Shown in pieces: positions 5,500 through 17,492 of a stretch of 34,845 nt of DNA (position 1 is the first letter of the stretch; every line of letters starts with the position of its first letter). Under the pieces are notes generated by a model. The model saw only the letters and a program-made list of their open reading frames with translations. It ran no database searches and had not been told where the DNA came from. Position numbers and translations under genes: made by a program. This DNA comes from an uncultured Schlesneria sp. (lineage in GTDB: Bacteria; Planctomycetota; Planctomycetia; Planctomycetales; Planctomycetaceae): positions 1 to 34,845 of the forward strand of contig CAIQIR010000021.1 in the NCBI GenBank assembly GCA_903871875.1, in the 5' to 3' direction.

Positions 5500-7002
5500 T
5501 CACTTGGCCGATGATTCGTTCTCAGTGATGTCGGCCGTCTCGGTCGGGGTGGGGTTGGCTTCTGTAGGGCCGTGCTGATCAAATTCGGTTCCGACCGAAC
5601 GCAGCAGTTCGGTGCGGCTGCGGTGGTATTCGGTCAGTTTTTGCTGGTAGGCGATTTGTTGTTCGGTGGATTGCTTTCGAGCTTCCATCAGTCGCAGAAA
5701 ATCGATCGAACCGGCGATATACGCAGCGCGGGCGGCATCCAGATTCGTCTGGGCGGCCGGCAAGATGCGATCCTCGTAGAGGTAAACCGCTTGTTGATTA
5801 GCCAGCACGCGCGAATGGGCGATCTGAACTTCCTCGCAGACGACGTCTTGTTGCTGGGCCTGTTCGGCCATCAGCTTGCTGAGTCGAAACTGAGCTTCGC
5901 GAACGGCCGCACCGCGCCGGCTTCGATTCAAAGGAACGTTCATGTTCATGCCGACTTGTGGCCGCTGAACCTTGTCGGTCCAGAAGGAATCGTAACGGCC
6001 CATGAATTCGAAATCCGGGTAGTAGTCTTTGCAGGCAAGTGCGACCGCATTTTGTTCTGACTGGATCTTGGCGGACAGCGAGGCCAATTCGGGTCGATGT
6101 TCCACGGCCAATTGCCGAAGCATCGAAGCGTCGGGAAGCGGGTCCGTCGTGGCCAGTCGATGTGGAGGTGACGGCAAACGTTTATCGGGACGTTGATGCA
6201 GCAGCGTATTGATCCGTGCAATCGCAATGCGTCGAGCCTGCTCGAGTTCCAACCGCATCTGCTGCAGCTTGGCCAATTCCAGATCGGCAGCGGAAAGATC
6301 TTGTTCCGAAACTTGATTGGCTTCGTATTTGGTTTTGGCCGTGGCACGAAAATCCTGCATCAACTCGACATTCTGCAGGTTCAGTTCGAGTTCTCGCTCG
6401 GCCAGAAAGAAATCGAAGTAGGCCATTCGACTCGCCGCCGCCAGTCGCAGTTTCACTTCCTCGGTGTCCCACGATGCGGATTGCGCATCCCACTGGGCCA
6501 TCTGCCCGCGCAATGTCCGTTTGCCTTGCCAGGGTACACGCTGGGCCATGCCCAGGTAATAAGACGATTCGACCGGCGAACTGGAAGGAAATGTGGCCGG
6601 TGCGAACATCGTCTGCAGCATTGGATCCTCGAGTGCGATCACCTGGGGATATCGTTCGGCCGCCGCACTCCATGCCGCTTGCGCCGCGTGCATCGACGGA
6701 TTGCGGGCATGAACCGCCGCGATCAGCGCGTCGAGTGATAGTTCGTCCGCTCCGGCAAACAGATTGTCCCCGTCCAGCTGATCAGAGACAGGCATCTCTG
6801 AAGTCGTCAGATGACCGACAGACTGGATGCCAGCGTCCAGCTCCTCTTGTCCCGCGGCGTTTTGACGAGCGACCGACGCAGGTTTATCGCGAAGGTCCGT
6901 GCGATCGGGCAAAGCGGCCACGCGCGAAGACGCCCGGCAACCAGTCAGCCAACAGGCCGATGCAATGACTGCGCAGAACCCGAACCCGTGGAACAGCGAC
7001 AT
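5500..7002 (-). CDS. TolC/CusC-type outer-membrane efflux lipoprotein
   Basis: Outer-membrane channel of tripartite RND efflux systems. The start at 7002 is supported by AAGGAGG with good spacing and yields a lipoprotein signal with LTGC (Cys22). Two OEP repeats follow, with long helical stretches: about residues 100-290 (AVHARNPSMHAAQAAWSAAA; VELMQDFRATAKTKYEANQV) and 300-470 (QLAVEHRPELASLSAKIQSE; ARAAYIAGSIDFLRLMEARK). PLNRSRRGAAVREAQ and AGSIDF are typical of CusC/CzcC-like members. It is minus-strand and separated from the CusB and CusA genes by five accessory genes, but is the only outer-membrane partner in the island and so the likely third component. The C-terminal tail is Glu/Thr-rich and non-conserved. 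Confidence 0.9.
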   Translation of the reverse strand: MSLFHGFGFCAVIASACWLTGCRASSRVAALPDRTDLRDKPASVARQNAAGQEELDAGIQSVGHLTTSEMPVSDQLDGDNLFAGADELSLDALIAAVHARNPSMHAAQAAWSAAAERYPQVIALEDPMLQTMFAPATFPSSSPVESSYYLGMAQRVPWQGKRTLRGQMAQWDAQSASWDTEEVKLRLAAASRMAYFDFFLAERELELNLQNVELMQDFRATAKTKYEANQVSEQDLSAADLELAKLQQMRLELEQARRIAIARINTLLHQRPDKRLPSPPHRLATTDPLPDASMLRQLAVEHRPELASLSAKIQSEQNAVALACKDYYPDFEFMGRYDSFWTDKVQRPQVGMNMNVPLNRSRRGAAVREAQFRLSKLMAEQAQQQDVVCEEVQIAHSRVLANQQAVYLYEDRILPAAQTNLDAARAAYIAGSIDFLRLMEARKQSTEQQIAYQQKLTEYHRSRTELLRSVGTEFDQHGPTEANPTPTETADITENESSAK

Positions 7003-7414
7003 TCTCGCCTCCTTGGACGATCGCATGAATGATGCTGGCGGGTTAGCGTGTCAGCCAGATACAGTGCCTTTCGAGCACATTCGTTAGCCCCCTTATCGTC
7101 TGGAACAAACGCCGATTTGCGAAAATCAGACCTGGCCCGCAAACCCAAGCATTCTGCGGGAGTGAAATCCCCGTTCAAGTGATGGGGAGTGGCAGAAATC
7201 GCCACTGCGCTCCTCGGGACGATGGAGGCAACTCGCTTCAACAACAAAGGATTCTGTTTGGACGAGTCGGTGACGGAACGAGGGTTTGCGAAGCGTTGAC
7301 ATCCCCATGACGGACCGCAATCCCTGGAAACGCAATGGCGGTCGTTCGTTTCGCAACTGATTCTCGCGATCTCTATTGAACGTGGAACTTTCCTTTGACA
7401 CTCGGAGTGACGTC
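7003..7414. other. divergent intergenic region, 412 bp
   Basis: This region separates the minus-strand TolC gene from the plus-strand anchored protein and must hold both promoters. It contains the TolC Shine-Dalgarno next to 7003 and a 6-bp hairpin (7188-7193 with 7201-7206). No recognisable metal-regulator operator or protein remnant was found. Frames open in it have no family resemblance. Confidence 0.5.
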
Positions 7415-7960: not shown

Positions 7961-8107
7961 GGCTGACCTCGTCGTACGTGTTGAGAATTGGGGCTTCACG
8001 AACAGACGGTGAATTTCGGCAAGCCACCGTTGCCAACCGGCGAATACTCAATCTTGTTTGAAAACGAAATTTGTCCGCCGAATCTTCCAAGTGAAGGATT
8101 GTGTTTA

Positions 8108-8434
8108 ATGGAACTGGCAAAAACGCTGGGGATCTTTGTACTGACAGCGCTCGCAGAAATTGTCGGCTGCTACTTGCCGTATTTGTGGTTGCGCAAGGGG
8201 CAGTCACCGTGGCTATTGGTTCCCACGGCAATCAGCCTGTCGCTGTTCGCCTGGCTGCTGACATTACATCCCACGGCGGCAGGAAGAGTTTATGCCGCCT
8301 ATGGGGGTGTCTACATCACTGTCGCTCTGATCTGGCTGTGGGTGGTTGACGGAATTCGCCCGAATCCCAGTGATTGGGTCGGTATGTCGCTGTGCCTGGT
8401 CGGAATGGCCGTGATCATGTTTTCACCAAGATAA
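8108..8434 (+). CDS. ynfA: YnfA family (UPF0060) inner-membrane protein
   Basis: A 108-residue, four-helix membrane protein, exactly the family length. Recognisable family segments are [20 protein letters not shown] near the N-terminus, [23 protein letters not shown] in the middle and [20 protein letters not shown] at the end. YnfA proteins are related to small multidrug-resistance transporters. The frame is open to 7988, but ATG 8108 with AAGGA nine bases upstream gives the conserved N-terminus. It lies inside a metal-efflux island, and a transport or tolerance role there is inference. Confidence 0.92.
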
Positions 8435-8671: not shown

Positions 8672-9145
8672 ATGAACCTGGTGCGGCTATTGACGGTGCT
8701 CATTCTTTTGCCGGTGACGGCATTGAGTGCGGTGCCTCACGTCGCCTGTCGCTGTTCCAACGGCGAAGTTCATCTGTCTTGCCCGCGCATGGCACAGCCA
8801 CAACCGGCTTCAGATGCCAAATCTTGCTGCAACACGTTGCAGACTACCGGTCGTAAGTCGTGCTGCGGCAGCAATCAGTGCGGTGGTTCGTCGAACCGGA
8901 AATTACCAGCCCCGCATTCATCCTGCTCGGCAGCAGGGTGCCATTGTACGCCGGTCTATCTGACCGCCGACGTCGGTCCCAAGCTGACGAAAGTTTGCGT
9001 GCCCGACCTGGTTCAACTCGAACTGGCGGATCTCTCGGCAACTGCGGCAATTGTGATGCACGTTGCTCACAAGGATCTGTCCCGCATCGACTTCACGCCC
9101 GAGCCGGTTGACCTGATTCTGCTCTATGAGCGGTTTCTCATTTAA
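8672..9145 (+). CDS. secreted cysteine-rich protein, probable metal binder
   Basis: A 157-residue protein with a cleavable signal peptide (about residues 1-22). The mature part has eleven cysteines between residues 26 and 92 (Cys26, 28, 37, 52, 53, 64, 65, 70, 85, 90, 92) and one more at 109, arranged as CRC, two CC pairs, CGSNQCGG and CHC. The remainder (about 95-157) has no cysteine after 109 and looks like an ordered strand/helix domain rich in acidic and hydrophobic residues. Position immediately upstream of other Cys/Met proteins and the CusBA genes suggests periplasmic copper or silver sequestration or sensing; this is inference. The family is not recognised. An upstream TTGAGGA is a rather distant Shine-Dalgarno (about 13 bases). 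Confidence 0.78.
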   Translation: MNLVRLLTVLILLPVTALSAVPHVACRCSNGEVHLSCPRMAQPQPASDAKSCCNTLQTTGRKSCCGSNQCGGSSNRKLPAPHSSCSAAGCHCTPVYLTADVGPKLTKVCVPDLVQLELADLSATAAIVMHVAHKDLSRIDFTPEPVDLILLYERFLI

Positions 9146-9451
9146 GATGCGTCATTGCGCCGTGCGACGCACTCGCACAGGCCTCTTCCAAGACGCTGCT
9201 CAAGTCTGCACACGTGTCTGACCGTTCGTTTTGGCGCGACCGTGGCGACTTCTCACTGGCCTCATCTGTTGGTCATCGAAGGGATTGCAGAGATCCCGCG
9301 TGATCGGGCACAGAGGGGACGATGCATATTTCCCGATGCAGGGTGTCCCTACGTCGGGTGGTCGTTTCTATCAGTTGTATTGCAAGGCTCTCGATTCGCG
9401 ATTCCAGAGGGAATTTGTGGCGCGAGTCCTTGTTTGAAAGGTCCAAATATC
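9146..9451. other. intergenic region, 306 bp
   Basis: This lies between the two secreted Cys-rich genes. It contains a 6-bp hairpin with a 12-nt loop just after the upstream stop codon (9148-9153 with 9166-9171), without a T-run. It also contains the GAAAGG Shine-Dalgarno of the next gene. The downstream frame stays open through it, but the translation is not protein-like. No operator was recognised. Confidence 0.45.
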
Positions 9452-9844
9452 ATGTCCAAATCAATTCTGTTTGCGTTGTTGACCGTGACCGGTTCCGTGT
9501 TGTCGACAGCGGACCTGTTCGCTGGCCAGGGCAAAGCCGGTTGTGCCTGCGGCGCCGCATGCGCAATGTCTGCATGCACAACCACTTCATGCTCTGCTCC
9601 GGCAAGCATGGCACCTGAGAAAGCAGCTCCCGCCGATCCGCATGCGGGCATGAACATGTCACAGGCGAATTCCGGCAGTCGGTATCAAAGCTTTTCGTAC
9701 GAACCCGACGCCGCGCAGCCCATGACGTCGACCTCCGCACGAACGACCGTACCCAGCTATCGGACTTACCGCCAACCGTCGACTTCGTTCTACGACTCGG
9801 TTCGCGGAGACCGCAAGGTCCGTAGTCTGAGCGGCGTTAACTAA
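9452..9844 (+). CDS. secreted Cys/Met/His protein, probable metal binder
   Basis: A 130-residue protein with a signal peptide (1-24, ending DLFA-G). The mature N-terminus has five cysteines at residues 31, 33, 37, 42 and 47 in small-residue context (CACGAACAMSAC), then a HAGMNM cluster (His64, Met67, Met69) of the sort used for Cu(I) by periplasmic copper proteins. The rest is Ser/Tyr/Arg-rich and probably disordered. The start at 9452 is preceded by GAAAGG and begins the signal peptide. Its place between the Cys-rich protein and the HMA protein supports a copper-handling role; no known family is recognised. Confidence 0.78.
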   Translation: MSKSILFALLTVTGSVLSTADLFAGQGKAGCACGAACAMSACTTTSCSAPASMAPEKAAPADPHAGMNMSQANSGSRYQSFSYEPDAAQPMTSTSARTTVPSYRTYRQPSTSFYDSVRGDRKVRSLSGVN

Positions 9845-9969: not shown

Positions 9970-10521
9970 ATGAAACAGCAGATCTGGACCACAGCAACCA
10001 GCAGCGCGGCACTTCTCTGGTTCGCTGGCGCACTCACCGCCGCCGATCCCGCCCCCGCGGCAGCGGATGCCGCAGCACCCTCCACCGTGAAAGCAACGTT
10101 TTTGATGACAGGCCTGCACTGTCCACCCTGCACCTCCACGGTCGAAAGATCGATCAAATCGATTCCGGGCGTACGCAGCGTCAAAGTCGATTGGACGACC
10201 AAAAATGCCAGGGTTGAATTCGACGAAAAGCAGATCGCGGCCCAACAGCTATCCAACCGCATCGCCACGACGCCCCACATGATGGGCGGCACGATGAAAT
10301 ATGGAGGCTGGCTGGCTTTGAAAGTGCCCGAGATTGCCGCCGAAGGGAACGGCGACAAAGCCAAGGACGCTTTAACGAAGGTCAAGGGCGTGGACAAGGT
10401 CTCGATTTATGCAGCTCAAAAATCGATCGGGGTCTCGTTTTCCGCCGAGGGTCAGGTCACGAGCGCTCAATTGATCGAGGCTCTGAAAGGCACTGGTTTG
10501 GAAGCCAGCGTGCTTCCTTAA
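9970..10521 (+). CDS. secreted heavy-metal-associated (HMA) domain protein
   Basis: A 183-residue exported protein: signal peptide (about 1-25), a short Ala/Pro linker, then an HMA domain (about 40-107) with the metal motif GLHCPPC (Cys51, Cys54) and the usual beta-alpha-beta pattern (STVERSIKSIPGVRSVKVDW). A second region (about 115-183) has the same ferredoxin-like layout (ALTKVKGVDKVSIYAAQKSI; AQLIEALKGTGL) but no CXXC, so it looks like a degenerate duplicate. It probably binds Cu(I) in the periplasm and could deliver it to the CusBA complex encoded just downstream. GAGGAG precedes the start by about eight bases. Confidence 0.9.
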   Translation: MKQQIWTTATSSAALLWFAGALTAADPAPAAADAAAPSTVKATFLMTGLHCPPCTSTVERSIKSIPGVRSVKVDWTTKNARVEFDEKQIAAQQLSNRIATTPHMMGGTMKYGGWLALKVPEIAAEGNGDKAKDALTKVKGVDKVSIYAAQKSIGVSFSAEGQVTSAQLIEALKGTGLEASVLP

Positions 10522-10743: not shown

Positions 10744-13104
10744 ATGGTCAATCCTGCTGACTCTCGCCCGCCAGAATCAAACGACGTCACGTCCGACGAA
10801 GGGGGCCTGCGCGCTCCCTCCCATCTCAGCCGCTGGGGAAAAGCGTGGTGGTGGTTTGATTTTGTGATCCTCGTCAAGCTGGCTCGGCTGCGGTTCATTG
10901 CCATTCTGGCCGCGATTGGGATCGTGATCACTCAGTGGGACACGCTGGTGGCCTATTACGACAAGTGGACCCGTCCGAAGACCGCGGCCTCGGCCGCCGC
11001 AAGCAACACCGAATACTTTTGCCCTATGCATCCGGCGGTGGTCCGCGAGACGGGCAAAGAGAAATGCCCCATTTGTTTCATGCCGCTGTCAAAACGCAAG
11101 AAGGGCGACCATTCGATCGAAGCCTTACCAGCCGGCATCGTCAACCGCGTGCAATTGTCGCCTTATCGTGTCGTGCTCGCAGGTGTGAAAACCTGGGAGG
11201 TGGACGACGTTCCACTGACCAAGGAAATCCAGGCGGTGGGATACGTCGAATTCAACGAGCGAGGACTCAAGAATGTCTCGGCGCGCGTCAAAGGTCGCCT
11301 GGATGAACTGGCTGTCAATGAAACGGGGCAACTGGTGGCCGAGGGTGATCTGCTGGCTTCGCTCTACAGTCCTGACCTCAACGTCACCGTGCAGAATCTG
11401 CTCGACGCCAAGCGACGCAACAGCGCGGAAACGGTGGCCAGTGCTCGGCAGCGATTGCAACTGTTGGGAATCGGCGACGATCAGATCGACGAAATCGTTC
11501 AATCGGGTAAATCCAACAGTCACTTGCGGATTCGATCCCCCATCAGCGGTCATGTCATCAAGAAATACGTTCGCGAGGGTCAGTACGTCGACGAAGGCAG
11601 CCCGCTGTACGACGTCGCCGACCTGTCTTCGGTTTGGATTCAGGCGCAAATTTACGAAGACGACATGGTCTTTCTGCCCATTGATCAATCACACAAACTG
11701 GACGAATCGTTCCCCGTGTCCGCTACAACCCGCGCCTTTCCCGGCGAAGTGTTTCGAGGCACTTTGACCTTTGTTTATCCTCATGTCGACCAGCAATCGC
11801 GGACGGTGACGGTCCGTTTCGAGTTATCAAATCCGGGACACAAACTGCGCCCCGGAATGACCGCGACCATTACACTGCTTGTCCCACCCGAACGCGTTCC
11901 CGTGTTGCGACAACTGACGAAAAACACCGAATTAGAAAACGCCAAGCTTCTCTCCGGGCGGGTACTGGCCGTTCCCGAGACCAGCGTGATCGACACTGGC
12001 AACCAGACGATCGTCTATCGCGAAACCTTGCCGGGAACGTACGAAGGAGTGCTGGTGACTCTCGGCCCAAAAATGACCGGGCCCAACAATTTGACTTATT
12101 ACCCAGTCGTCGAGGGACTTGAACGCGGTGACCAGATCGCCACGTCGGGGTCGTTCCTCGTGGATGCGGAAACTCGACTGAATCCTGCGGCGGGCTCCAT
12201 TTATTTTGGCGGCAGCGGGGGATCAAAATCGGGTGGCGGTGCGACGACCGTTCGCCCAACAACACCGGAACACGAAGACGCAAAGCTAACGGCAGCCCTG
12301 AAGAAACTGGCTCCGGAAGACCGGGCTCTCGCCGAGCAACAGAAGTATTGCCCGATTCTGGAAAACAGCCGACTCGGTTCGATGGGCGTGCCGCTCAAGT
12401 TGATGATTGACGGAAAGCCCGTGTTTATTTGCTGTCCGGCGTGTGAGAAGTCGGCCAGAGACCAACCGGAAGAGACGTTAAAGAAACTTGAGCGGAAGAA
12501 GTCGTCGGCACCGATGCCCGGCTCACCAATGACTTCCCCATCAGCTGGCAAGAAAGTAACTGATTCCGAAGCCAAGATTCGGACCAGCCTCGCCGCACTC
12601 AGTGACGATGATCGCCAACTGGCCGAACAACAACGGGAATGCGTCGTCTTGAAGAATAGTCTTCTCGGATCAATGGGGACACCACGCAAATTGATGATTG
12701 AGGGGCATGCAGTCTTTATCTGTTGCGCCGCGTGCGAAAAATCGGCCCGCGCCAATCCCCAGGCGACATTGAAGCGACTGGCGGAACTGAAAGCGCAGAA
12801 CGAACACGAGTCCGATGAGTTGGCGGACCTCAAGGGACTCGATCCCGAAGTTCAGACCGCATTGGCCAAACTCAATGCCGCTGATCGAAAACTGGCACTC
12901 GCGCAGCGATTCTGTCCGATCGCGGAAGGGAGTCTGCTGGGATCAATGGGACCGCCGGTCAAGCTGATGATTGATGGCCAGCCAATTTTTCTCTGTTGCG
13001 AAGGCTGTGAGGACGCCGCACGAGAAAAGCCACAACAGACCGTGGCCAAGGTGAAAGAACTCATTGCCCAGCCCGTCGGCGAGAAGAAGGAGCGAACTCG
13101 ATGA
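10744..13104 (+). CDS. cusB: CusB-like RND periplasmic adaptor with four metal-binding modules
   Basis: Membrane-fusion adaptor of a heavy-metal RND pump, 786 residues; typical CusB is about 400. Order: an N-terminal anchor (LRFIAILAAIGIVITQW, about 45-61); an HMBD domain with YFCPMHP and CPIC (Cys93, Cys108, Cys111), typical of Cu/Ag adaptors; hairpin and barrel-sandwich domains (VSARVKGRLDELAVNETGQL; IRSPISGHVIKKYVREGQYV); beta-barrel and membrane-proximal regions to about 490. Three tandem repeats of about 72 residues follow, from residues 515, 612 and 703, each with C-X26-CC-X2-C (Cys536/563/564/567, 633/660/661/664, 724/751/752/755) and a shared GSMGxPxKLMIxG core, resembling YHS/TRASH treble clefs. 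The start at 10744 has AAGGA ten bases upstream. The stop overlaps the pump start by ATGA, so the two are translationally coupled. Confidence 0.92.
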   Translation: MVNPADSRPPESNDVTSDEGGLRAPSHLSRWGKAWWWFDFVILVKLARLRFIAILAAIGIVITQWDTLVAYYDKWTRPKTAASAAASNTEYFCPMHPAVVRETGKEKCPICFMPLSKRKKGDHSIEALPAGIVNRVQLSPYRVVLAGVKTWEVDDVPLTKEIQAVGYVEFNERGLKNVSARVKGRLDELAVNETGQLVAEGDLLASLYSPDLNVTVQNLLDAKRRNSAETVASARQRLQLLGIGDDQIDEIVQSGKSNSHLRIRSPISGHVIKKYVREGQYVDEGSPLYDVADLSSVWIQAQIYEDDMVFLPIDQSHKLDESFPVSATTRAFPGEVFRGTLTFVYPHVDQQSRTVTVRFELSNPGHKLRPGMTATITLLVPPERVPVLRQLTKNTELENAKLLSGRVLAVPETSVIDTGNQTIVYRETLPGTYEGVLVTLGPKMTGPNNLTYYPVVEGLERGDQIATSGSFLVDAETRLNPAAGSIYFGGSGGSKSGGGATTVRPTTPEHEDAKLTAALKKLAPEDRALAEQQKYCPILENSRLGSMGVPLKLMIDGKPVFICCPACEKSARDQPEETLKKLERKKSSAPMPGSPMTSPSAGKKVTDSEAKIRTSLAALSDDDRQLAEQQRECVVLKNSLLGSMGTPRKLMIEGHAVFICCAACEKSARANPQATLKRLAELKAQNEHESDELADLKGLDPEVQTALAKLNAADRKLALAQRFCPIAEGSLLGSMGPPVKLMIDGQPIFLCCEGCEDAAREKPQQTVAKVKELIAQPVGEKKERTR

Positions 13105-16100
13105 TCGAACATCTGATCGAAGCATCGATTCGCAACCGATTTCTCGTGTTGATCGCCGCGGCGATGCTCACGCTGGCGGGCGTGTATGCCATGATTCAAA
13201 CTCCGGTCGACGCCATCCCCGATTTGAGCGAGAACCAGGTGATCGTCTTCACCGACTGGATGGGCCGCAGTCCGCGTGAGGTCGAAGACCAGGTGTCGTA
13301 TCCGCTGGCGCGCAAGCTGCAAGGTCTGGCGGGCGTCCGCGCCGTGCGGTCCTCGTCCGAATTCAACTTCTCGATGATCACAATCATCTTTGAAGATAAC
13401 ATCGACTTTTATTTCGCTCGTCAGCGGGTGACGGAAAAGCTCGGACAGGCGTCCAACTATTTGCCGACGGGCGTCGTGCCCTATCTCGCACCCGACGCGA
13501 CAGCGCTGGGTCAGATCTTCTGGTACACCGTCGAGGCCGGACCCGAGCACCCTGTCGATCCACAGCGGCTGTGGGCCATCAACAAATTTTACATCGCACC
13601 GCAACTCAACGCGGCTCAAGGGGTCGCCGACGTGGCGACCGTGGGTGGGCTACCCCTGGAATACCAGATTGACGTCCGCCCTGAATCGCTGTGCGCCTAT
13701 GGCATCACGCTCGGCGATCTGTATTCGGCGGTGGCCCGCAGTAATATGCCGGCCGGCGGCGGAGTGATCCAAAAGAACAACGCCGAATATATCGTGCGGG
13801 GCATCGGCTGGATTCGCGATCAACGCGACATCGAACGGACGGTGATTCGCGAGGTCAATGGAACACCAATCTATGTGGGCACGGTCGCCTCGGTGCAAAT
13901 GGGTACCCAGTTCCGCCGTAGCGTCTACGAGAAAAACGGCAGCGAGGTGGTCGGCGGTGTGGTCCTGATGCGTCATGGCCAAAATCCACTCGCGGTGACA
14001 GAACGCGTCAAAGAAAAGATTCAGGAATTGCAGCCTGGCCTGCCGGAAGGCGTGCATATTGTCGCAGCCTATGACCGCACGCGATTGATTCATGGTGCGA
14101 TCCACACGCTGACCGAAGTCATGTGGCACGAAATGATTATTGCGTCGGTCGCCATCCTGTTGATCCTGTCGCATGTCCGCAGCGTGTTCGTGATCTGTAT
14201 CACCCTGCCGCTGGCGGTGCTGTTCTCATTCCTGATGATGTGGCTGCTGCGAACGCTGGGTGTCATCGATATTCAGGCCAATATCATGTCACTGGCGGGC
14301 ATTACGATTTCGATCGGCATTCTGGTCGATCAGGCAATCGTGATGGTTGAGAATGCGACGCATGTACTAAAGGATCATTTCGGCGACAAACCGGTCACGG
14401 GCGACACGCGCGAACTGGTGATTCCTGCTTGTCGAACGGTTGGTCGGCCGATCTTTTTCTCGGTGCTGATCATGCTGCTCTCGTTCGTTCCGGTGTTCAT
14501 GCTCAGCGGTCGTGAGGGGAAATTATTTCATCCGCTCGCCTTTACGAAAAGCTTTGCGCTGATCGGCGTGGCCCTGATTTCGGTCACACTGGTTCCGGCC
14601 TTGATCCCGATGTTCATTCGAGGCCGCCTGCGAAGCGAAGAAGAGAACTGGATCGTTCGCAGTTTCATTCATATCTACAAGCCAATGCTGACCTGGGCAT
14701 TGCCACGGCGCAACCTGGTCATGTGGATGTTCGCCGTCTTGCTGATCTTGGCAGCCGGCATGTTTCCTTTGCAGGCCATTGTCGGGCAAGGTGCGTCTGA
14801 AGCGGCCTGGAAGACGACGTTCTTATTGGTCTTCGCGCTGGTCGTGGCGTTGACGGTGATTTCCACTCGCAAAGTCCGTTGGCAGATCTTGTCGTTCAGC
14901 ACGCTGACACTGATCGGGCTGTGGGCCTATCACTTTCCCAAAATCGGCGTCGCATTCATGCCGGCGCTCGATGAGGGAACGACGCTCGATATGCCGATCA
15001 CCGTGCCGCGAGCCAGCATCACGCAAGCCTCTGACGATCTGAAAGCCCGCGACGCACTATTGCGAGGTTTCCCCGAAGTCGAATCGGTAATCGGCAAAGC
15101 CGGACGCGCCGATACCCCCACCGATCCAGCCCCGCTCGACATGGTCGAGACCTTCGTGAATTTCCGTCCTCGTGAGTTCTGGCCGAAGCGTGTGCTGCGA
15201 TATCACGACGCCGAACGTCAGACACGCGACGCACTCGCCACCCTGGAACAGAACGGTTACATCGCCGTCTCCGGAACCACTGAAGACCGCGAGTCACTCA
15301 TCAATAACGCGGCACAGAAGGCACTTGAACGCTGTGACGAGGCGCTCAAGGAATTGTCGCTGGCGAAATACCAGGCGTTCGAATCGCGACTCGGCGGCGA
15401 GTTGGCCGATTTTGGTGTCCGCGAATCGATCCGGGAATTGATGAGATCCGGAAACTGGGCCTGGCCGAAAGAGACGAACAGCGACAGCGCGACGATGGAA
15501 CTCGTGATGTCGCTCACGACCGAACTGGGTCCCTGGCTGGCAACGACCCCCGCTCTGGAGGACGTCACGCTGCTGGTCCATCGCGTCGTGCAGCAGGGCG
15601 TCGAATGGGGAGCCGTGACAAATTCCGTTCAAGCCTTGGAACTCAAACCGACATTGGTGGGCCAGGCGATGGCCCTCGTCGGAGAAACGTTGGGACACAC
15701 GCGTGCCACTCTGCCGGATGAAATGCTTCAGCGCGTGATCCACCAGCACGCCGAGCTGTGGCGAGAAAACGTTCGCCAGGTGAATTGGGAATTGTTTGAT
15801 CGTGGCACCGAGGCCTACACGTTATTTGCACTCGAAGAATTGGCCCTCGCGGCGAAACAGCAGGCACTGACGTCGTCCGCCGCAAAAGGGACCGAAACGG
15901 ACACCTTCGCCGAGGCGTCACTCCAATCGCAGTGGGGGAATGCACCCGACGTCAAAACGATGGAACCGTTTCTGGCACTTCAGGAGCGATTGCAAAAGCC
16001 GTTCGCCGACCGAGTCTTCCTTTGGCCGCGTCGCAACGGACCGAAGGGTGATCTGGTGGATGACGAAATGGGCCGGGTACTGCAAGTCCCGGGCTGGAGC

Positions 16101-17492
16101 AACATCTTCACCCAACCGATTATCAATCGAATCGAGATGCTGTCGACCGGCGTACGGACGGATATCGGTGTCAAGATTTTTGGCCCGGACCTCGACACGA
16201 TTGACGGCGTCTGCAAACAGATCGAAGTGGCGTTGAAACCCCTGAGCGGTGCTCGAGACGTCATTGCCGCGCCGATCATGGGCAAGGGTTACCTCGATAT
16301 TAACATCGATCGCGAAGCCGCCGCACGCTACGGAATCAGCGTCGAAGATATTCAGAACGAGATCGAAGTCGCCTTGGCCGGCCGCGCCGTGACCTACACC
16401 GTCGAAAAGCGAGAACGGTTCCCGGTGCGCATTCGCTACGCCCGATCCTCGCGCGAGAGCGAAGAATCGATCCGGCGGCTGCTGATCAGCCCGAACAGCA
16501 TGGGGGGAACTGCAAACATGTCCCGCCCAGCGGACGGGATGTCGCGGCAACCCGGCGGTGCGACAGGGACACTCGCCGCCGACCCGGATTCGGCCGAGAG
16601 CCATTCTACATCCCCCGGTCATGCGAGTTCCGGTCGGCCGCTGATCCCCTTGTCCGCCGTTGCCGAGGTCAAAATCGTCGAAGGCCCGGCCATGATCAAG
16701 AGCGAGAACGGCCGGCTGTTAAACTACGTGACACTGAATGTTCGTGGTCGCGATATCGTGGGGTTCGTCGAAGAAGCCCGGCGAGTGGTCTCGGAAAAAG
16801 TCTCGCTGCCCGAGGGTGTGCATATCGAATGGAGCGGCGAGTTTGAACATCAAGTTCGCGCGGCCCGGACACTGCGATTTGTCTTTCCTGCAGTGATCGC
16901 CGTTATCTTTTTGATTCTCTATTTAACCTATCGCGATCTGGCCGACGCCGCCTTGATGATGCTGACCGTTCCCGAAGCCCTGGCTGGTGGCGCGTTTTTC
17001 ATGTACCTGTTCCCCAAAATCATGCACGGCTGGGATGCGCCGCCAATGGATTTCAGCGTCGCCGTGTGGGTGGGATTCATCGCTTGTTTCGGCATGGCCA
17101 CGGAAACCGGCATCATCATGCTGGTCTACCTGCGAGAAGCCATCGAGCGACGCGGTGGTTTGGAAAAGATCGCTTCGTTGGAAGAGCTGCGGCAAGCGGT
17201 CATCGAAGGCGCAGTGCATCGCCTGAGACCCAAGCTGTTGACTGAAGGCGTCGCGATCATCTCCATTTTCCCGATGGTGTTCGCGAACGGCGTCGGTGGT
17301 GAAATCCTCGCTCCAATGGCCCTTCCGGTCTTGGGCGGACTGCTCATTTCTGACGAAGTCGTCGATCTATTCCTGCCGGTGCGATTCTATTGGGTCCGTC
17401 GCGCCCGCTGGCTTAAGCTGCACGGTCGCGTCGATACAGGACACGTGACGCACTCGACCGCGGCACCGGTCGACGCCACGACATCGGTTTAA
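13101..17492 (+). CDS. cusA: CusA/CzcA-type heavy-metal RND efflux pump, enlarged
   Basis: Inner-membrane proton-driven exporter of the HME-RND family. The proton-relay residues of CusA are all recognisable: Asp410 in GILVDQAIVMVEN, Glu1335 in MATETGIIMLVY and Lys1378 in RLRPKLLTEGV. At 1463 residues it is about 400 longer than usual CusA. Two additions explain this. Before GVAFMPALDEG there are three hydrophobic segments (about 536-612) where one is expected. After the porter motif FRPREFWP (about 692) a helix-rich segment of about 285 residues is inserted, before the sequence resumes at LVDDEMGRVLQVPGWSNIFT (about 984). A Ser/Gly/Met-rich loop (about 1134-1175) is also extra. Cu/Ag is favoured by the HMBD adaptor and Cys/Met-rich neighbours, but the substrate is not proven. 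Confidence 0.93.
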   Translation: MIEHLIEASIRNRFLVLIAAAMLTLAGVYAMIQTPVDAIPDLSENQVIVFTDWMGRSPREVEDQVSYPLARKLQGLAGVRAVRSSSEFNFSMITIIFEDNIDFYFARQRVTEKLGQASNYLPTGVVPYLAPDATALGQIFWYTVEAGPEHPVDPQRLWAINKFYIAPQLNAAQGVADVATVGGLPLEYQIDVRPESLCAYGITLGDLYSAVARSNMPAGGGVIQKNNAEYIVRGIGWIRDQRDIERTVIREVNGTPIYVGTVASVQMGTQFRRSVYEKNGSEVVGGVVLMRHGQNPLAVTERVKEKIQELQPGLPEGVHIVAAYDRTRLIHGAIHTLTEVMWHEMIIASVAILLILSHVRSVFVICITLPLAVLFSFLMMWLLRTLGVIDIQANIMSLAGITISIGILVDQAIVMVENATHVLKDHFGDKPVTGDTRELVIPACRTVGRPIFFSVLIMLLSFVPVFMLSGREGKLFHPLAFTKSFALIGVALISVTLVPALIPMFIRGRLRSEEENWIVRSFIHIYKPMLTWALPRRNLVMWMFAVLLILAAGMFPLQAIVGQGASEAAWKTTFLLVFALVVALTVISTRKVRWQILSFSTLTLIGLWAYHFPKIGVAFMPALDEGTTLDMPITVPRASITQASDDLKARDALLRGFPEVESVIGKAGRADTPTDPAPLDMVETFVNFRPREFWPKRVLRYHDAERQTRDALATLEQNGYIAVSGTTEDRESLINNAAQKALERCDEALKELSLAKYQAFESRLGGELADFGVRESIRELMRSGNWAWPKETNSDSATMELVMSLTTELGPWLATTPALEDVTLLVHRVVQQGVEWGAVTNSVQALELKPTLVGQAMALVGETLGHTRATLPDEMLQRVIHQHAELWRENVRQVNWELFDRGTEAYTLFALEELALAAKQQALTSSAAKGTETDTFAEASLQSQWGNAPDVKTMEPFLALQERLQKPFADRVFLWPRRNGPKGDLVDDEMGRVLQVPGWSNIFTQPIINRIEMLSTGVRTDIGVKIFGPDLDTIDGVCKQIEVALKPLSGARDVIAAPIMGKGYLDINIDREAAARYGISVEDIQNEIEVALAGRAVTYTVEKRERFPVRIRYARSSRESEESIRRLLISPNSMGGTANMSRPADGMSRQPGGATGTLAADPDSAESHSTSPGHASSGRPLIPLSAVAEVKIVEGPAMIKSENGRLLNYVTLNVRGRDIVGFVEEARRVVSEKVSLPEGVHIEWSGEFEHQVRAARTLRFVFPAVIAVIFLILYLTYRDLADAALMMLTVPEALAGGAFFMYLFPKIMHGWDAPPMDFSVAVWVGFIACFGMATETGIIMLVYLREAIERRGGLEKIASLEELRQAVIEGAVHRLRPKLLTEGVAIISIFPMVFANGVGGEILAPMALPVLGGLLISDEVVDLFLPVRFYWVRRARWLKLHGRVDTGHVTHSTAAPVDATTSV

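Follow-up and report, generated by a model that had tools for sequence, protein, structure and literature searches.

Three tandem cysteine-rich modules related to YHS/TRASH domains on a CusB-like adaptor of a Schlesneria bacterium, a putative tethered metallochaperone

Domains of the YHS/TRASH families have a cysteine spacing of C-x(about 19-26)-C-x3-C. The YHS domain of Mycobacterium phlei has its cysteines at C181, C204 and C208, and ligand 1 of YHS/TRASH domains is an aspartate or a cysteine, placed by the D178/C181 rule three residues before the first conserved cysteine (excerpts of PMC4626032). CusF and the tail of the adaptor SilB represent one domain type which occurs both free and fused, as described in the excerpted part of PMC4446572. 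In the pump CusA the cluster of M573, M623 and M672 proved to be essential, and two divalent-metal pumps have other residues at these places (PMC3637150, in excerpt). No paper on a YHS/TRASH tail of a CusB-type adaptor was found among the matches listed from the open-licence PMC literature. A tail of related build is described here for an adaptor encoded in a stretch of 34,845 nucleotides from an uncultured Schlesneria sp., which as a whole is called the window.

The gene of this CusB-like periplasmic adaptor lies at 10744..13104 on the plus strand with ATG 10744 as the likely start; the reading frame is open from 10609 and has 831 amino acids, so that residues are numbered below either in this 831-residue frame or in the 786-residue form. 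Its body was assigned to HlyD_D23 (Pfam, E 1.5e-65; barrel-sandwich at 11215..11865, +), and the best solved relatives are CusB chains (E about 3e-17, residues 84-479 of the 786-residue form). With a CusB/HlyD barrel-sandwich body and an adjoining CusA-type pump the protein is a CusB-type adaptor. As the alignment to CusB stops at residue 479 of 786, the tail is extra compared with CusB, and it is these approximately 300 C-terminal residues which hold the three repeats. Near the N-terminus a helix in the predicted model (10831..10932, +; residues 30-63 of the 786-residue form) would serve as a membrane anchor, and the letters ARLRF...W of this region did not vary across 10 adaptors. An HMBD had also been proposed for the adaptor. 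The motif CPMHP...CPIC is present (11014..11076, +; residues 136-156 of the 831-residue frame; Pfam HMBD E 0.0012), its cysteines and HP letters being the same in 10 of 10 adaptors, but with 19.2 bits it stays below the Pfam cut-off of 23.6 and is called HMBD-like here. The four metal sites per adaptor chain that had been proposed with it are putative.

The original prediction had placed three tandem repeats with identical cysteine spacing at the C-terminus, and C-X26-CC-X2-C was indeed recovered three times in the 831-residue frame. In this numbering, module 1 (12277..12504, +) contains cysteines 581, 608, 609, and 612 and glutamine 578, module 2 (12568..12795, +) cysteines 678, 705, 706, and 709 and glutamine 675, and module 3 (12841..13068, +) cysteines 769, 796, 797, and 800 and glutamine 766. 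The helix LxxLxxxDRxLAxxQ and the core GSMGxPxKLMIxGxxxF were found in the repeats as claimed. Some values had to be revised: the repeat unit comprises about 76 instead of 72 residues, successive units are spaced by 97 and 91 residues, and all three together extend over 12277-13068 instead of 12286-13065. Ungapped self-diagonals of the adaptor scored 227, 214, and 200 at offsets 97, 188, and 91, compared with maxima of 30-42 in 10 whole-protein shuffles. When all three are cut to equal borders, repeat 2 shares 58% and repeat 3 shares 50% identity with repeat 1, and 29 columns are invariant. A profile of the three repeats detected in the window's genome these three and one weak match (L012, E 0.09), which is a YHS-like sequence. 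Structure prediction, named earlier as a check, yielded a confident alpha/beta model of module 1 (pLDDT 91.7). No CusF model matched the window adaptor at E up to 1 in Pfam, and the alpha/beta model likewise does not point to a CusF-type tail. The full-length adaptor model had a mean pLDDT of 69.1, with most of the three modules at 77-88 and values below 50 for the linkers 471-510 and 588-606 of the 786-residue form, the former being a probable flexible linker 5' of module 1 (12154..12273, +). According to this model the modules are probably arranged as beads on a string, joined by flexible linkers.

Relatives were taken from 79 loci, the best of 180 confirmed stretches, some of which share one genome. 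Seventy-six of them are from planctomycetes, some named to genus, and L126, L136, and L159 are labelled only 'bacterium'; the nearest adaptors belong to Schlesneria and to another Planctomycetaceae bacterium (66-75% identity). Loss of the cysteines in homologues had been set beforehand as the observation that would speak against a metal-binding role. To avoid circularity the cysteine and glutamine columns were masked in the conservation profile, which was run on 81 ORFs (the window adaptor, 74 motif-recognised adaptors, and six ORFs from five loci missed by the motif). It detected 136 modules, distributed over 79 of these ORFs, and all four cysteines were conserved in 133 of the modules; the remaining three are cut short, one by the end of its contig and two by an in-frame TGA.

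The suggested link to YHS/TRASH domains was borne out by sub-threshold sequence matches together with weak fold matches. The window protein scored 23.0 bits with TRASH_HVO_1752_C and 19.7 bits with Arc_trans_TRASH at a cut-off of 27, and the YHS model of Pfam did not match it at E up to 1. As no Pfam model was above its cut-off, the window modules are termed YHS/TRASH-related and not members of these families, and such proteins are probably under-annotated. TRASH/YHS models matched 29, 21, and 14 of 86 module members at E up to 0.1. A Foldseek search with the module model had YHS-bearing hydroxylases in its top rows, weakly and at E >1; in the VIA list of this search Cap5 stood above the YHS proteins. 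Against the PDB the module profile gave seven weak sequences, the best being ribosomal S4/eS4 (E 0.0015), which was taken as a chance match and rejected as a relative, with Ta0938 (E 0.16) and ZMYM5 (E 0.32) further down. The spacing C-X26-C-(Cxx)-C, as in YHS/TRASH domains, is present in all three window modules, and in 127 of 127 modules found by motif the first and second cysteines have 25 or 26 residues between them (31 or 32-residue cores). The modules thus resemble YHS/TRASH domains (PF04945, PF08394, PF24273) in their weak profile matches, the FxCCxxC signature, the C-x3-C counted from the first cysteine of the CC pair, and the ligand-1 place at -3 of the first cysteine. They differ by an LGSMGxP insert, an additional N-terminal helix pair, their tandem arrangement on an efflux adaptor, scores below the cut-off in the window, and the residue at the ligand-1 place.

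This residue is neither aspartate nor cysteine but glutamine, in 136 of 136 adaptor modules and in 77 of 83 relatives of mixed architecture (101 distinct motif matches minus 18 without a G.[MHKD]G.P-like core), and it is the last residue of the LxxLxxxDRxLAxxQ helix. Glutamine would be an unusual ligand and counts against a role as metal chaperone. It also counts against a structural role, in which each module would fix Zn(II) and mediate contacts, for instance from adaptor to adaptor or to the outer-membrane channel, as one ligand of the usual four is replaced by it. In favour of such a role, zinc binding and protein interaction are common functions of treble clefs. So is the TRASH protein eL24, seen with Cd(II) on four cysteines in a ribosome crystal (excerpts of PMC4626032). 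Free secreted versions of the module and the frequent change of its copy number, both described below, fit poorly to structural zinc, which we regard as quite unlikely.

The number of modules per locus was three in 9, two in 37, one in 32, and zero in 1 of the 79 relatives, a sample in which tail-less adaptors are under-represented because the ten members of the query all have modules; the adaptor of L154, split over two ORFs, was counted once. A survey of repeat number had been proposed beforehand; in these 79 relatives three-copy tails do exist but are not general, one or two copies being commoner. Two of the two-module adaptors, L121 and L165, belong to a record titled Gemmata sp. IIL30. 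With L145 a single locus has no module, so at least one relative can do without the tail. Of the adaptors in the 29 loci L013-L041, 13 were without a module by motif, and L030, L035, and L036 have a module-like motif in another ORF though the adaptor is without one. A plasmid collection contained 452 records with a match to the adaptor (E up to 1e-20). None of them spans 80% of it, and the best 8 of the 452 end near residue 528, ahead of the tail.

Copy number as the mark of a single clade was rejected, as at least 15 changes were required on a tree of the tail-less adaptor bodies (71 rows, excluding the six extra ORFs, L114, in which DAE[TS]R is absent, and the three adaptors with inserted modules, L163, L166, and L168). 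Recent triplication within the window gene was rejected for modules 1 and 2 by the module tree. In 57 rows these two modules group with the same-numbered Schlesneria modules (in starred sets comprising 6 and 3 rows), hence the copies predate the species; this holds for modules 1 and 2, module 3 of the window being in no resolved set. None of the starred sets in a broader quick tree, drawn from 127 modules, contains a window module.

Another finding was that the module also occurs outside the adaptor, with 16 of 74 loci having an additional small ORF which bears it. Small ORFs with one or two modules near the adaptor were seen in L091, L096, L099, L101, L109, L110, L112, L116, and L118, and further in L119, L125, L126, L143, L154, L158, L163, and L166. 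By eye, several of the ORFs inspected start with a lipobox or signal peptide, among them the free two-module proteins of L091 and L099, and in L110 a 134-amino-acid lipoprotein with a module follows directly downstream of a one-module adaptor; neither a lipobox nor a signal peptide was recognised by eye in the 91-amino-acid ORF of L096. The free modules of L109, L110, L112, L116, and L154 have their best matches (62-67% identity) in the last module of other two- or three-module adaptors or in the single module of L117, and four of these five share 46-54% with the module of their own adaptor. The terminal module therefore seems to occur both fused and free. Two further kinds of module-like proteins were encountered. 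In L054, L074, L075, L076, and L078 an ORF of 303-348 amino acids beside the free-module gene carries a YHS-like CPxTxTKANxxFxW...FCCPPC pattern. Small proteins of L020, L021, L082, and L085 have two dissimilar motifs in tandem. One of these has a core of the G/D-S/H type, and its closing helix is overlapped by the other, which is CPV...FVCCPPC-like.

In 68 of 75 adaptors module 1 starts 51-73 residues after DAE[TS]R, the distance not being obtainable in 4 of the 75. In L163, L166, and L168 the module precedes DAE[TS]R and lies inside the adaptor body rather than at the C-terminus. The near-fixed distance would suit modules which sense periplasmic copper and switch adaptor or pump between a resting and an active state without carrying the exported ion, a mode of action for which a mycobacterial adenylyl cyclase, with its YHS domain as a probable copper switch, provides a precedent (excerpts of PMC4626032). 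A sensor or gate is hard to reconcile with the poorly predicted linker, with the at least 15 changes in copy number on the core tree, and with the presence of the module on separate lipoproteins, and it appears unlikely to us.

The neighbouring genes provide the context for a function in metal transport. Directly after the adaptor lies the gene of a CusA/CzcA-type RND pump (13101..17492, +; TIGR00914, 923.8 bits compared with a cut-off of 701.45), and a pump motif was found downstream of the adaptor in 68 of 74 relatives, three of the other six being at contig ends. Alignment to E. coli CusA puts M631, M681, and M1013 of the window pump opposite M573, M623, and M672, and this predicted three-methionine cluster assigns the pump to the HME-RND proteins of the Cu(I)/Ag(I) class. 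Searched by motif in 30 relatives, all three methionine sites were present in 19 and not in 2, and 9 gave no pump ORF by regular expression. Our best guess for the cargo is Cu(I)/Ag(I). The pump gene has an insert at 15186-16040 (+), corresponding to residues 696-980, which adds about 285 residues between CusA chain positions 644-647. In 21 of the 30 relatives the open frames of the pump have 1361-2117 amino acids, so that long pumps look usual here. A secreted HMA-domain protein (9970..10521, +; HMA E 1.9e-16, signal peptide by eye) is a possible partner of adaptor and pump, and an outer-membrane efflux protein (OEP; 5500..7026, -; E 1.3e-39) is a possible candidate for the exit duct. Two cysteine-rich ORFs (8672-9145 and 9155-9844, +), with stretches resembling signal peptides by eye, precede the HMA gene and the adaptor gene; Pfam gave no match to either of these ORFs at E up to 1. 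The window also encodes a YnfA/UPF0060 membrane protein (7988-8434, +; E 1.7e-39) and an ORF (1600-2073, -) which CopD matches below its threshold (E 0.00084; 20.1 bits compared with 32.1).

We favour, as reasonably probable, that the tail is a tethered periplasmic metallochaperone and buffer for Cu(I)/Ag(I) which feeds the adaptor and the CusA-type pump. With the cysteines of C...CC..C each module would bind a single soft metal ion, most likely Cu(I) but possibly Ag(I). The module would capture Cu(I) in the periplasm, swing on its flexible linker and pass the ion to adaptor and pump, with additional copies increasing the local metal capacity. A similar action has been proposed for the CusF-like SilB tail. 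Metal binding, identity of the metal, hand-over, and a benefit of several copies are all four inferred from the conserved cysteines and glutamine, the TRASH/YHS matches, the pump with its methionine cluster, and the free secreted modules, which taken together make this role the probable one. By analogy, the SilB tail (excerpts of PMC4446572) and the copper-switched YHS enzyme (excerpts of PMC4626032) would lend it further support.

The two adaptors which end at an in-frame TGA have one module each, and the TGA (L115:5398-5400, L157:1199-1201) takes the place of the second cysteine of CC-x2-C. Both frames continue for 31 codons beyond it; these encode the closing helix and are followed by TAG or TAA. 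The loci are from two assemblies, genomes G698 and G664, of one genus (g412). SelB was above cut-off in both TGA genomes and in two of three other genomes searched, and tRNA-Sec in both and in G051; it was not found above cut-off in the window genome, G012, G004, or G022. L115 and L157 each have an in-frame TGA in a genome with SelB and tRNA-Sec, the combination expected for a selenoprotein. In 397 genomes of the class, among the matches listed, an internal TGA occurred only in these two loci, and one other had a TAA. A hairpin after the TGA has 7 bp in L115 and is interrupted in L157 (z -0.94 and +0.62), in both cases no more stable than shuffled sequences, and an Rfam search of L115 for a SECIS gave no match other than one irrelevant below threshold. 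Over the 31 codons after the TGA the two loci differ at 7 positions, 4 of them third positions, and 4 codons are changed non-synonymously. By eye, conservation of the non-coding flank is similar. A YHS-domain protein is listed among selenoprotein families in a review (PMC9312934, in excerpt), and the literature search yielded no paper on a YHS selenoprotein in symbionts. We consider it somewhat more probable that the TGA encodes selenocysteine, a shared nonsense mutation being the less probable but serious alternative. If selenocysteine is correct, the exchange would mark a metal-handling residue and a metal-efflux adaptor would be a selenoprotein.

Selenocysteine is usual in redox centres. 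A TGA read in this way would therefore also fit a CC-x2-C acting as periplasmic thiol-disulfide centre in shielding the pump or in the reduction of Cu(II) to Cu(I), the second cysteine of CC and the last one making up a C-x2-C. A redox function appears very improbable to us: the first cysteine, 26 residues away, is equally conserved, and metal-binding domains make up the nearest families. For the tethered chaperone a broader and still tentative extension, to which we give clearly less credence, is that planctomycete pumps use a carrier class of their own, a YHS-related Gln/Cys4 module in one to three copies, tethered or on lipoproteins, which would move Cu(I) over soft-ligand sites and whose labile ligand would be selenocysteine in at least one genus. 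If the chaperone role is true, a second domain type has been recruited for the job of CusF and the SilB tail, the feeding of a copper pump. The natural series of zero to three modules, fused or free, lets the value of additional metal sites be measured.

Compared with known systems, the locus is like E. coli CusCFBA in that the adaptor body aligns to CusB, the pump to CusA, and the three essential methionines are kept, and unlike it in the HMBD-like motif near the adaptor N-terminus and the approximately 285 additional pump residues. The YHS domain of the Mycobacterium phlei adenylyl cyclase is a related small cysteine module with copper as the probable ligand, but that domain is cytosolic, single-copy, and enzyme-regulating (both in excerpts of PMC4626032). 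Closest in arrangement is SilB of Cupriavidus metallidurans, where a small domain with a proposed role as metal chaperone likewise stands behind a CusB-type adaptor and also exists as a free periplasmic protein (excerpts of PMC4446572). The SilB tail is one CusF-type beta-barrel, in contrast to the one to three alpha/beta cysteine-rich modules of a different predicted fold found here, and cysteines take the place of the methionine-based site of CusF (methionine clusters in excerpts of PMC4446572). An adaptor with a fused metal-carrier tail is thus best called already known in kind, and the YHS/TRASH-related build of this tail new.
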